Positions 5,132 through 8,838 of a stretch of 32,956 bases of DNA are shown here, in pieces. Positions within the stretch are counted from its first letter, which is position 1. Each line of letters begins with the position of its first letter. The stretch covers positions 1-32,956 of the IMG/VR virus record IMGVR_UViG_3300023118_000023, one strand, 5' to 3'. The position numbers and the translations under genes were made by a program. The notes beneath the pieces are model-generated. The model worked only from the letters and a program-made list of their open reading frames with translations, ran no database searches and was not told the DNA's origin. This DNA is from a virus.

Positions 5132-5137
5132 ATGACT

Positions 5138-5419
5138 CCTTCAATACCAAGGTATTTCGACAATGGAATTCTCCTTAAATTTTAAAAATCAGAACTGAAA
5201 ACACCTAGTAGTACTTACTCACCGAGTTCTTAACCAGTACTAGACTGTATAACGGTGATGACTTAATCCGTGTACAAGCGATGATATCAAGCTTGTGTGT
5301 TAATCTAGACCGATTACTGTTGAATGTTCCAAAGCACATAAAAAGAAAACAGTTCTAATACAGTTAAGTTACAAGCTGTAAGGTCATAGCTTGTCTAATT
5401 CTTTTGTTCCTATAGTTTA
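5138..5419 (-). promoter_or_regulatory. 280-base leader of the late leftward operon with two related hairpins
   Basis: Between the leftward promoter and the small terminase start lie about 280 bases without a gene. Two hairpins share nearly the same stem: ACAAGCT at 5371-5377 pairs with AGCTTGT at 5388-5394, and ACAAGC at 5274-5279 pairs with GCTTGT at 5291-5296. Two copies of AGTACT also lie about 20 bases apart near 5208-5240. Such a leader could control readthrough or mRNA stability; that is inference. No T-run typical of an intrinsic terminator follows the hairpins on the transcribed strand. Confidence 0.45.
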
Positions 5420-5448
5420 ATTATACCATTATTACGAAAGTGTGTCAA
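5420..5448 (-). promoter_or_regulatory. Sigma70-type promoter for the leftward packaging genes
   Basis: On the minus strand TTGACA (5443-5448) and TATAAT (5420-5425) are both perfect consensus boxes separated by exactly 17 bases. The surrounding bases (GGGGTTGACAC before, TGGTATAATTAA and CTATAGGAACAAA after) are shared with the rightward promoter at 32264. This suggests recognition by the host sigma70 RNA polymerase and possibly a shared phage control. It would drive the small terminase and everything to its left. Confidence 0.85.
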
Positions 5449-5884
5449 CCCCTATACACGAAAAAAGTGCATAATAATTGAAATAAAGTGATATTTTATA
5501 CAATAAAGTGTAAAAGTAGTAATAGAGTACCCTAAGTACTGAGAGTATGAAGTAGACGAATCAAGTTCTTATACAGAAAATAATGGATACCTAATTATAC
5601 AGCTAAGATATTGAAAAATATATGGAATGTGTATACAACTATAGCTACCCCTCCCTTGGTCCTGCCCGGATAGTACAGATTTTCCCTATACTTTAGGAGG
5701 AAAGTAAAGGAATTGCGAGTTAAATACAAACTCCAAGAGTTAAGCATATCAATACTAGACGTTACTGCTAATACTAGACGCTAATGTATTACTTAAGTAC
5801 AACAATACTTGAACAGAGTATTATGAAGTAAAACAATACTTGGTAAACTTGGGCTAATCTTGTCAACTAACTAGCAGTAGAAAT
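5449..5884. other. AT-rich intergenic stretch with short direct repeats
   Basis: No gene is visible. The stretch is rich in A and T and contains short direct repeats: AATACTAGACG twice (about 5751-5782) and ACAATACTTG twice (about 5803-5843). An AGGAGG-like sequence near 5696 is not followed by a usable reading frame. Placement between divergent transcription units, high AT content and short repeats would suit a replication origin or a regulatory region, but no established origin motif was recognised. Confidence 0.3.
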
Positions 5885-5942
5885 CGGCCAGGAATTGCAA
5901 CTAGACGTCCGTCTTTACTCTGGCCGCCAGTCCTGCTATGAT
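5885..5942 (+). promoter_or_regulatory. Rightward promoter candidate inside a large dyad
   Basis: TTTACT (5914-5919) and TATGAT (5937-5942) are separated by 17 bases and form a moderate sigma70 promoter pointing toward the structured region and the rightward genes. The -35 box lies within an inverted repeat: CGGCCAG at 5885-5891 pairs with CTGGCCG at 5920-5926, with an inner AGACG/CGTCT pair at 5903-5907 and 5910-5914. The dyad could be an operator. ATAGGAATAT occurs twice just downstream (5947-5956 and 5976-5985) and a partial third copy lies near 6015. Confidence 0.5.
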
Positions 5943-6823
5943 AGACATAGGAATATAGTCCTTTATCCTGGTTGTATAGGAATATATTCTTTCAACCTTT
6001 GGTTTGTAGATTATGACAAAGGAATATGCTGTAATAGTATAGTGATAAATAAGTCACACATTAGGTTTATTCTCAAGAGCCTATAGACTTATTTGTTTTT
6101 TGTGTTAACGCGCAAGCGTGGTCAATATCCCCGCGAAAAGGGATTGTTCTTTGATAGCTCAATACGGGGAGGATACGCGGGGAACTGGCTGTCAGAAGGC
6201 CATAGAAGGCCAAGGGAAGGCTTTGAGGCTTAGGACTAGGGATTATGGGGAAAAGGGCGATCGGCAAGCCTGTGAGGACTAAAACCTGGTGTTCATTCCC
6301 CTAATTCCTGGTGGTCATAATCAGGGTAGAAAACAAGAAAGATTTGAGGAAAAACAATGAGATGAAAGAAAGTTGAAAAACCCTCTTGCATCCTTTGCCC
6401 AATTGTATATTCTGCAAATATCGAAAGAGACAAACCAATACACAAAGGCATGTGAGTTGGTGCGAGCATTGGCCTTGGCCTCTAAGCGTTCGGCAGAGTT
6501 TGTTGCTTCAGTAAGCCCACTGGCTTTCGGTGATTTAACTTCAGGGTTCAGGGGATTGGACCTTTCGGCTTTAGGCTTTCTGCCTTTAGTCCTCAAAAAT
6601 CCCCTAAAGTTTTCCGCCCCTTTGGCGGGTTTGTTGACACGGTCTTTGCTAGGCCACTGCGCTGCAGCTTACTAACTAAGGTGAGATAATCGGATATCCG
6701 GTTGCTAAGTCCGAAGGTGCTGCATCAATCTAGCTTAGGGGCGGATAGGTCTTTAGTTGCAACTCGCAAGGCAACACAATCTTTTGAGTTAGCTCTTTCG
6801 TCATTGGCCTGTAATGGGCTCAT

Positions 6824-6888
6824 GATTGGGATTGTAAACAGAAGGTGAAAATCCTTCAAGGATAGGAGCAACGGTTCTCTGTCCAATC
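6824..6888 (+). ncRNA. Repeated RNA element, copy A
   Basis: A closing helix GATTGG (6824-6829) with CCAATC (6883-6888) surrounds a hairpin GAAGG (6841-6845) with CCTTC (6853-6857), followed directly by AAGGATA. The same architecture, with different but still complementary bases, is found in copy B at 7132-7204. Downstream, both copies also share a segment reading roughly AACTAGTNTGG followed by TTNAACCTAG. Confidence 0.6.
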
Positions 6889-7081
6889 TATCGACTTCTT
6901 TCTTTCGAAAGGCTTAGGAAACGGAATACCGTTGGTATACCGAAAGTACGGGCAACTAGTGTGGAAAGCGTTAAACCTAGATAACAGACCTTCTAGGGAC
7001 GGTGGATTGTGCACTGCCTACGTTGCTTTCGGTTCAATGACGACTTTTGATTTCCTTCCTGTATGCCAAGTGGCGGCTATG

Positions 7082-7121
7082 AAGCTATCCCTTTGATGTG
7101 GATTTGTGGATTGTAAAGCTT
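7082..7121 (+). ncRNA. CTTTGATG-loop hairpin, copy 1
   Basis: AAGCT (7082-7086) pairs with AGCTT (7117-7121) and encloses CTTTGATG (7091-7098) followed by TGGATTTGTGGATTGT. About 36 bases here closely match the second copy at 7461-7500, apart from the stem bases, which differ but stay complementary. Confidence 0.55.
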
Positions 7122-7131
7122 GGATAACATT

Positions 7132-7204
7132 ACATGGCGGAATTGACGTGAGAGGGGAAAATCGTCCCTTCAAGGATAACGGATAGCTGGCGGGAATGCC
7201 ATGT
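7132..7204 (+). ncRNA. Repeated RNA element, copy B
   Basis: A closing helix ACATGGC (7132-7138) with GCCATGT (7198-7204) surrounds a hairpin GAGGGG (7152-7157) with CCCTTC (7166-7171), followed by AAGGATA. Compared with copy A, both helices use different bases while remaining paired, whereas the single-stranded AAGGATA is unchanged. That is the pattern expected of a conserved RNA structure. Confidence 0.6.
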
Positions 7205-7460
7205 GAAGCCCGGAATACGTCAAACTAGTTTGGTGGAATGTTGAACCTAGTAGTGCGCTGACAACGCGAGAACGGGGATACTAGCGTAATAGCCCCATCG
7301 CCCGTAAGACGGCGGTATAACCTTTTGGTTATAATCTAGGTGTGATCACTATCCCGGGGAGCGGTTGCAAGCATCGATTTGCACTTAAGCTTACTCACAG
7401 TACGGGATAAGAATAAAGGGGTAATAATGGATATAGCGTTGTTAGGACACGGTTGCTACA

Positions 7461-7533
7461 GACAATGAAGCTTTCACTTTGATGATGTTTGTGGATTGTC
7501 GCCAGCTTGCCAGCCTATGCTTTGATGAAAAGC
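7461..7533 (+). ncRNA. CTTTGATG-loop hairpins, copies 2 and 3
   Basis: GACAAT (7461-7466) pairs with ATTGTC (7495-7500) around CTTTGATG at 7477-7484. Immediately after, GCTTT (7519-7523) pairs with AAAGC (7529-7533), with CTTTGATG again at 7520-7527 forming the 5' arm and loop. Another strong hairpin follows at about 7574-7600, in which TCGCC with AGAC pairs with GTCT and GGCGA. Confidence 0.55.
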
Positions 7534-7691
7534 AACGACGAGAGAAAAAGCCCCAAAAGTTAAATTATAAAGTGATCGCCAGACTGTTTTGGTCTAGGCG
7601 AATTTTCCTGTTAATATCTTTTAAGAGAAAACAGGGGGTCGATTAAGGCATGACACAGAGAGGGTTTTTGTGTCATCAGTATTTGGGAACT

Positions 7692-7812
7692 GAATTGTAA
7701 TTCTCTTGTCACGTCCAATAGTCACTAGATAAATCTAAGCGTCATAAATGATAGGAATATCATTAGGCGTTCACAGTGCTTGTGTGAGAACGTGACAAGA
7801 TTGGTGCAATTC
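7692..7812 (+). ncRNA. Multi-branched RNA domain closed by an 11-base helix
   Basis: GAATTG (7692-7697) pairs with CAATTC (7807-7812). Inside, the 11-base TCTTGTCACGT (7704-7714) pairs perfectly with ACGTGACAAGA (7790-7800). The enclosed segment carries AATGATA (7747-7753) with TATCATT (7758-7764) around a GGAA (GNRA) loop, a small TAGA/TCTA hairpin near 7726-7736, and a CACA/TGTG hairpin near 7772-7784. A chance 11-base exact pairing at this distance is unlikely. Confidence 0.65.
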
Positions 7813-7820
7813 TAAGGATG

Positions 7821-7956
7821 AATTGTCTCGCTTAAACCTGTATGAACTGTCTCGAATATGGTTCCTGAAAATCAAGCCTTACCCTTTGATGTGGTCTAGG
7901 TGTATAGTAAGGTTGCCTTTTCAATTGGGGGATGGAAAGTAAGGCTAGAGACAATT
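7821..7956 (+). ncRNA. Leader RNA domain with two mutually exclusive stems, upstream of the 8080 gene
   Basis: AATTGTCTC (7821-7829) pairs with GAGACAATT (7948-7956). Inside it AGCCTTAC (7875-7882) pairs with GTAAGGCT (7939-7946). The same 5' arm, CCTTAC (7877-7882), can instead pair with GTAAGG (7907-7912), which encloses CTTTGATG copy 4 (7884-7891). The two pairings exclude each other, as in a switching leader. Two more small hairpins, GGGC/GCCC (about 8010-8023) and GACTAT-GGGG-ATAGTC (about 8028-8043), precede the ribosome site of the next gene. Confidence 0.5.
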
Positions 7957-8079
7957 AACCTAGATGTTTCACTGTGACTTCCGGAGGCAAAAACCTTTGG
8001 TGGTCATAGGGCAACATCGCCCGTGTCAGACTATGGGGATAGTCCACATAGCTGGAAACCTTTGAAAGAGGATACCACA

Positions 8080-8838
8080 ATGGCTAAGAACACAAACGCA
8101 CCGCGCGAACTTTCCATGTCGGAAAAGATCGATGCCGCAATTCAGAATATCGTCACTCGCGGCACTTCACTTCGCAATGATTGCCACACGACACTTGTCA
8201 TGATCATGGACCACTACATTGGTCTTGGCAACGGCGACACGACGAAAATCAAGCCATTCCTTGATGCCGTCAAGGGCTCTTTGGGCTCTTCGCTCTCACA
8301 GGCGGCAATGAACTGGATTGCGATTTCCATGCCGACACTCATGTTCGATGATCGTCCGGGCTCGAAAACCCGTGGTACGTTCGTCCACATCAAGGGCTCG
8401 AAAGAGCGCGTCTATGCCGAACTGAAAGACGTGACTTGCGTCTCCACCATGCCCGGTACCAACGACAAGCGCAAGTTCTCGGGTGCGCCTCGTGATCTGC
8501 CCTTCTTTGAATTGGAACGTATCCAGACACAGAAGCCTTTCAACCTCACGGCGGCTATCATTGCCCTTGTGAAGCGTGCCGACGCGGCAAAGGAAGCTAA
8601 TGAGAAAGACGACGCCGAGAATGTCATCAACGATGACGCTCTTGAAGTCCTGCATTCTCTGGCGAACAAGCTTGCACCAAGTCAGGTGACGGCACCAACG
8701 GCTCAACAGGTCGGCGCCAATCGTACGGCATCAACCGAAGGCAAGCCCGTCGCCATTGAAGAGCTTCGCGCCGAAACCCCTGTCAAGGCAGGTCGCAAGC
8801 CGAAGGCAGACAACACACAGAAGGCAGTAGCCGCCTAA
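8080..8838 (+). CDS. Unknown protein, first rightward gene
   Basis: 252 residues from the ATG at 8080, which has AAAGAGG eight bases upstream; the GTG at 8023 further up has no ribosome site and lies in a hairpin. Residues 10-90 look helical and globular (ending SQAAMNWIAISMPTLMF), and a segment rich in strands follows. The C-terminal 70 residues are low-complexity, with Ala, Lys, Thr and the AT-hook-like AGRKPKADN close to the end, which suggests nucleic-acid contact. G/C-ending codons look more frequent here than in its neighbours. As the first gene behind the structured RNA leader and ahead of a terminator, it is probably a separately regulated early gene. I do not recognise the family. 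Confidence 0.8.
   Translation: MAKNTNAPRELSMSEKIDAAIQNIVTRGTSLRNDCHTTLVMIMDHYIGLGNGDTTKIKPFLDAVKGSLGSSLSQAAMNWIAISMPTLMFDDRPGSKTRGTFVHIKGSKERVYAELKDVTCVSTMPGTNDKRKFSGAPRDLPFFELERIQTQKPFNLTAAIIALVKRADAAKEANEKDDAENVINDDALEVLHSLANKLAPSQVTAPTAQQVGANRTASTEGKPVAIEELRAETPVKAGRKPKADNTQKAVAA

Follow-up and report, generated by a model that had tools for sequence, protein, structure and literature searches.

At 7692-7812 of the virus record analyzed here (the window, 32,956 bases), overwhelming covariation identifies a conserved RNA structure, domain D, that is absent from Rfam. It lies in a gene-free stretch, which separates the terminase genes from the first early gene; within this stretch, upstream of domain D, two similar hairpin sites, copy 1 and copy 2, had been singled out by an initial annotation. 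The reading favored here, with a probability of about 0.55, is that these two copies are related hairpin modules in an untranslated structured leader of about 2 kb at the start of the rightward early transcript. The element originally drawn at both sites (an outer helix, an inner hairpin and an unpaired AAGGATA) is not established, and the leader with domain D is more interesting than the pair of copies. The wider hunch of the annotation, that the non-coding stretch encodes a conserved structured RNA, was well founded, the proof lying in domain D and not at the copies.

The gene-free stretch and its phage clade

The terminase, the primase-helicase and the gene order of the window are as in rhizobial phages of about 68 kb. 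Its matches among these are the Rhizobium phages RHph_N3_13, I3_11 and N3_19 and the Sinorhizobium phage phiM6, with which the window primase/helicase shares 72-75% identity, and additional relatives were drawn from IMG/VR (those with L numbers). In the window, leftward genes run from 5131 and rightward genes from about 8083, and no large gene lies between them (Table 1). An equivalent gene-free stretch of 2-3 kb is found in every relative whose record reaches both flanking genes, which amounts to 15 records with the window included (the window, N3_13, I3_11, N3_19, phiM6, L010, L012, L015, L018, L019, L090, L169, L180, L183 and L185); nine of the 24 records end within the stretch (L013, L014, L016, L173, L174, L178, L184, L186 and L188).

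A protein-coding reading of 6032-8082 was rejected, as tblastn of its 55 stop-to-stop ORFs of at least 25 amino acids against the stretches of 22 relatives gave just four short matches (E under 0.01, 9-19 residues), two of which are the opposite strands of a near-identical leader preceding the first gene. Known RNA families are likewise not represented: none of 4227 Rfam models matched the window at the gathering cut-off, and with E values up to 5 the sole match in 5132-8090 was a chance-level snoU85 at 5273-5300, with no fitting match in the window stretch or in L010. At gathering level the loci of seven relatives contained only two tRNAs, both outside the gene-free stretch, and a tRNA search of the window returned none. 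Group I and group II intron cores and riboswitches were discarded for lack of a family match. A literature search, from which subscription journals were mostly out of reach, found no paper on the gene-free stretch.

Several other features of this DNA were observed. Across the clade the gene-free stretch is best conserved at 5370-5670, where pieces are about 72-87% identical and where its promoter or origin part probably lies; a perfect 12-of-12 match to a sigma-70 promoter, with TG before the -10, is located at 5448-5420 on the minus strand, facing the terminase genes. A motif of the type ATGAAGCT...CCTTTGATG is present in three copies in the window (7079-7114, 7465-7499 and 7872-7895), with a fourth similar one in L169, and in L012 the gene-free stretch upstream of the terminase genes carries several direct repeats, imperfect and 37-47 nt long. 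Elsewhere in the window, between 16408 and 30319, eighteen ORFs in 18 places end in a near-identical peptide (YDPxxxGExDDDI-like), and 16 of these 18 tails have a potential next-frame ATG in or just past their coding stretch; the shared tail may thus be a repeated cassette of ribosome site plus start. A stricter tail pattern occurs 12 times in the window and not at all in the loci of eight relatives.

Table 1. Coordinates of the features in the window and, where indicated, in related records
Feature	Position	Strand	Remark
Gene-free stretch	5132..8082	+	between small terminase gene (-) and first early gene (+)
Weak promoter-like site for rightward (early) transcript	6013..6040	+	
GTTCTTTGA, boxA-like 9-mer	6146..6154	+	60-106 nt after promoter
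Copy 1 as initially annotated	6824..6888	+	outer helix GATTGG/CCAATC unsupported
Copy 1 inner hairpin GAAGG-TGAAAAT-CCTTC	6841..6857	+	pairing probability; two double changes in L010
AAGGATA after copy 1	6858..6864	+	GGATAG predicted paired with downstream CTGTCC
Downstream repeat of copy 1, ACTAGTGTGG...GTTAAACCTAG	6947..6980	+	
Copy 2 as initially annotated	7132..7204	+	outer helix ACATGGC/GCCATGT only in isolated fold
Copy 2 inner hairpin GAGGGG-AAAATCGT-CCCTTC	7152..7171	+	pairing probability, context-dependent
AAGGATA after copy 2	7172..7178	+	
Downstream repeat of copy 2, ACTAGTTTGG...GTTGAACCTAG	7216..7250	+	
Landmark CATCGCCCGTAAGACGGCGGTAT	7296..7318	+	largely common to L169, partly to L010
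Domain D	7692..7812	+	clade-wide
Domain D	L169:5570-5704	+	
Domain D	L018:6814-6928	-	
Domain D	L010:7337-7456	-	
Domain D	L007:1645-1747	+	
Domain D	L001:1869-1971	+	
Domain D	L019:2948-3047	-	
Domain D	L015:7516-7640	-	
Domain D	L183:2597-2712	-	
Domain D	L180:2631-2732	-	
Domain D	L012:1020-1135	-	
Four-way junction	L010:7899-7963	-	compensatory changes, nearly constant linkers
Four-way junction	L169:5023-5082	+	compensatory changes, nearly constant linkers

Domain D is a conserved RNA structure

In domain D an outer helix of 8 bp leads through an internal loop to an inner helix (P2), which is topped by a branched tip. The inner helix, of 9-12 bp, has a different sequence in nearly every phage; its own arms pair fully in seven of eight phages and to 0.88 in the eighth, compared with 0.38 when arms are swapped between phages (one P2 position of L015 is unpaired). 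In an alignment of nine sequences 93.5% of 138 cells are paired and 12 of 16 pairs are changed on both sides, counts that are lowered by the partial misalignment of the window and L015 rows. None of 500 shuffles reached the covariation score, slid versions of the alignment are only 32-46% paired, and the folding z of the eight copies folded is -3.4 to -7.5 in every case.

Searched against the 24 records, a model built from nine copies (R3) detects domain D in 12 at E ≤2.5e-4 and, at about 0.01, also in L090 and phiM6; among the 15 records spanning the gene-free stretch, 14 thus carry it. Because nine of these copies trained the model and I3_11 and N3_13 have identical domains, only L180 (E 2.6e-7), L012 (E 2.5e-4) and, weakly, L090 and phiM6 count as independent finds. 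The remaining spanning record, L185, gave no R3 match to domain D; two further matches, one antisense in L018 (E 0.014) and an extra one in L012 (E 0.15), were not counted. The phiM6 domain is a minimal version of 53 nt. In several phages some tens of nucleotides separate domain D from the first gene (e.g., in L001 it ends at 1971 and the gene starts at 2018); in the window the distance is about 270 nt. With its lower stem, internal loop and upper stem ahead of an early gene, domain D resembles the RNase III processing hairpins of the T7 early transcript, a likeness in predicted fold that concerns this domain and not copies 1 and 2. Domain D differs from the T7 hairpins in the conserved letters of its outer helix and in the branched tip that it has in most phages. 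No Rfam model matched it.

Two hairpin sites and their counterparts in relatives

The letters at copies 1 and 2 are as the initial annotation quoted them, each site has a hairpin with AAGGATA directly after it, and CTTCAAGGATA occurs in the window at these two places only. The similar downstream segment that was reported for both copies is also real, and the likeness of the two regions sits chiefly there (ACTAGTnTGG...AACCTAG). The local alignment of the regions scores 23, compared with a mean of 14.3 (sd 2.7) for 300 shuffled pairs, one of which reached that value; the alignment sets copy 2 against 6897-6981, not against the hairpin of copy 1 itself. The paired differences between the inner helices, which had been presented as internal covariation from one genome, were not recovered: the 3' arm CCTTC is identical in both, the single change in the 5' arm, A to G, is one-sided and turns A-U into G.U, copy 2 has one additional G-C pair, and no pair is changed on both sides. 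A reading of copy 1 as an FMN-aptamer-like AGAAGG/AGGATA arrangement was dropped, as copy 2 does not contain AGAAGG.

The proposed outer helices, GATTGG/CCAATC and ACATGGC/GCCATGT, are near what chance provides, since in 2000 shuffles of the flanks a 6-bp Watson-Crick helix arises at copy 1 in 15.7% and a 7-bp one at copy 2 in 2.5% (P 0.16 and 0.025), and in context they hardly pair. The pairing probability is 0.00-0.06 in four contexts for copy 1; copy 2, folded alone, reaches 0.72-0.99, versus 0.00-0.01 in four longer contexts, in three of which TTGACGT (7143)/ACGTCAA (7223) is favored instead (0.77-1.00). In the longest context (6600-7700, 1101 nt) this alternative pairing is also at 0.00. 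At copy 1 a stronger hairpin claims the CC of CCAATC and also pairs the GGATAG of AAGGATA with CTGTCC (0.58-0.59 in the longest context, 0.85-1.00 in the three others). A constant, unpaired AAGGATA is therefore not supported. The inner hairpin of copy 1 keeps a pairing probability of 0.94-0.96 in the two longest contexts; that of copy 2 is at 0.9-1.0 up to 551 nt and at 0.07-0.09 in the 1101-nt context. The folding energy of both stretches is modestly under that of shuffles (z about -2; with flanks -1.2 and -0.8).

A single homologue was found, in the IMG/VR contig L010 of a 68-kb relative. It resembles copy 1 (blastn 82% over 39 nt, E 5.6e-4 with respect to the set of 24 stretches) and occupies the corresponding place upstream of the shared landmark CATCGCCC (window 7296). 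The L010 hairpin, AAGGG-TGAAAAT-CCCTT followed by AAGGCTAGGA, shares with copy 1 the TGAAAAT loop and the AAGGnTAGGA tail, and two of its five pairs are changed on both sides (AAGGG/CCCTT vs GAAGG/CCTTC). Counted by hand, copy 1 and L010 differ in 9 of 41 columns, and the four differences in the hairpin make up two complete compensated pairs; of the 210 ways to place four substitutions in ten paired sites, 10 hit two whole pairs, complementarity not yet being required. The L010 hairpin has a pairing probability of 0.79-0.96, and the longest outer helix available to it is 5 bp (P 0.33). Because this lone homologue keeps the hairpin without the outer helix, the inner hairpin is probably a real RNA hairpin in copy 1 and in L010, and the larger element is unsupported. 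What survives of the annotated RNA element is therefore its inner hairpin, by virtue of an outside homologue and not of the two-copy comparison; the outer pairing is missing from that homologue, which counts against the element by the refuting condition that the annotation itself had set.

Further copies were sought with a covariance model of the copy 1, copy 2 and L010 sequences (R1). In 28 loci (297 kb) it found its own three training sequences only (next best E 0.56), and in 16 whole records it was convincing in that of L010 only (next best E 0.026, a single-record value). An exact-match pattern retrieved L010 alone among IMG/VR viral contigs and nothing among GTDB genome contigs, and L169, the closest relative, has no detectable copy.

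At about the place of copy 2, L010 and L169 hold a four-way junction, which lies some 80-116 nt before the landmark. Its outer helix is CAAGG/CCTTG in L010 versus CTAGG/CCTAG in L169, one arm is TCCAT/ATGGA versus CTCGC/GCGAG around the same GAGG loop, with four of five pairs changed on both sides as read by eye, and the linkers GACA, GATAA and GAA are nearly constant. A model of this junction (R2) found its two training sequences and no other locus; matches in L019 (E 0.58) and L183 (E 1.3) were rejected for their wrong orientation. Since copy 2 ends at a similar distance from the landmark, 92 nt, and its hairpin is followed by GGATAACGG, comparison by eye suggests that copy 2 may be a divergent version of the junction.

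A proposed early leader and the alternatives to it

Sites resembling TTGACA-TATAWT are found at the matching place for a rightward promoter, clearly in six of 24 stretches (phiM6, L010, L014, L169, L180 and L186). The window contains as many promoter-like sites as its shuffles, and its own candidate is weak and not above chance. The 9-mer GTTCTTTGA, which we take to resemble the rrn boxA, is identical in four phages (the window, phiM6, L169 and L186) and stands about 690 nt upstream of copy 1. In three phages the whole sense stretch downstream of the promoter has a mean folding z of -0.5 to -1.3, a small advantage over shuffles, and the antisense strand of the gene-free stretch has a similar folding z. 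As the whole stretch is only slightly better folded than shuffles, a fully structured, ornate RNA is not supported.

The reading of the copies as hairpin modules of an early leader draws on the conserved position of the stretch in the clade, on the compensated copy 1 hairpin in L010, on the conservation of domain D, on the junction of L010 and L169 with its two-sided changes and on the 9-mer that four phages have in common; against it speak the restriction of the R1 element to L010 beyond the window, the weak folding of the whole stretch and the weak promoter of the window. We infer transcription, antitermination, processing and any trans function of such a leader from sequence. The host polymerase would start rightward at a sigma-70-like promoter, and the boxA-like GTTCTTTGA may let it cross the untranslated stretch, giving a leader of 1.5-2 kb made as one transcript ahead of the first gene. 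The two copies would be locally duplicated, fast-evolving branch elements, each with a hairpin, a purine-rich linker and a second hairpin, at a place that appears to evolve equally fast in L010 and L169, where the four-way junction would stand instead. Domain D would form the end of the leader, ahead of the first gene, and would most likely serve there in processing or translation control.

Chance is a less probable explanation. Two kilobases of quickly drifting intergenic DNA could yield a short repeat and short helices, the hairpins being functionless, and both the poor conservation and the near-chance outer helices would suit this; among the 19 listed five-bp hairpins between 6100 and 8080 (overlapping registers counted separately), an outer helix of at least 6 bp is within reach for four. 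However, loop, tail and inner helix are kept in L010 with two double changes, and the regional similarity of copies 1 and 2 exceeds 299 of 300 shuffles. That the copies form a true repeated RNA element as first drawn, selected for instance as a protein-binding site, is improbable. Both copies can be drawn in this way with similar spacings, and copy 2 folded alone forms both helices, but the covariation between copies is absent, their outer helices are of near-chance length and yield to other pairings in context, the L010 homologue lacks such a helix, and AAGGATA is partly paired in copy 1.

It is similarly improbable that the copies are antitermination signals of the early operon, of the HK022 put RNA or lambda nut type, with GAAAA-loop hairpins that would act on the host polymerase. 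This analogy has in its favor the location in an early leader, as for the short RNA elements of those phages, the boxA-like 9-mer upstream and the TGAAAAT loop, whose GAAAA is reminiscent of the lambda boxB loop. It is weakened by the absence of this loop from copy 2, by the lack of any Rfam match and by the fact that the hairpins are missing from nearly all relatives, although the function would be required in them too; different from put and nut, the elements described here are not conserved across the clade.

The early leader favored here, with copies 1 and 2 among its hairpin modules, can also be set beside GOLLD and ROOL, described as large, branched, structured non-coding RNAs carried by phages, with unknown function and with profiles of both in Rfam (PMC12286853). 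The likeness lies in a large structured non-coding RNA carried by a phage. In contrast to those RNAs, no covariance-model match was obtained in the window or in the relatives' loci searched, the window has no tRNA, and structure is supported here for domain D and one junction. Tentatively, and with more doubt than confidence, the 2-kb leader might represent a novel kind of large structured phage RNA, produced at an early stage of rhizobial infection. Its conserved frame would end with domain D, and the copies and the junction of L010 and L169 would be branch modules on this frame that can replace one another. Large structured phage RNAs of unknown function are few. An early leader with at least one covariation-proved domain outside Rfam, in cultured Rhizobium and Sinorhizobium phages for which isolates and hosts exist, would be an experimentally accessible case.
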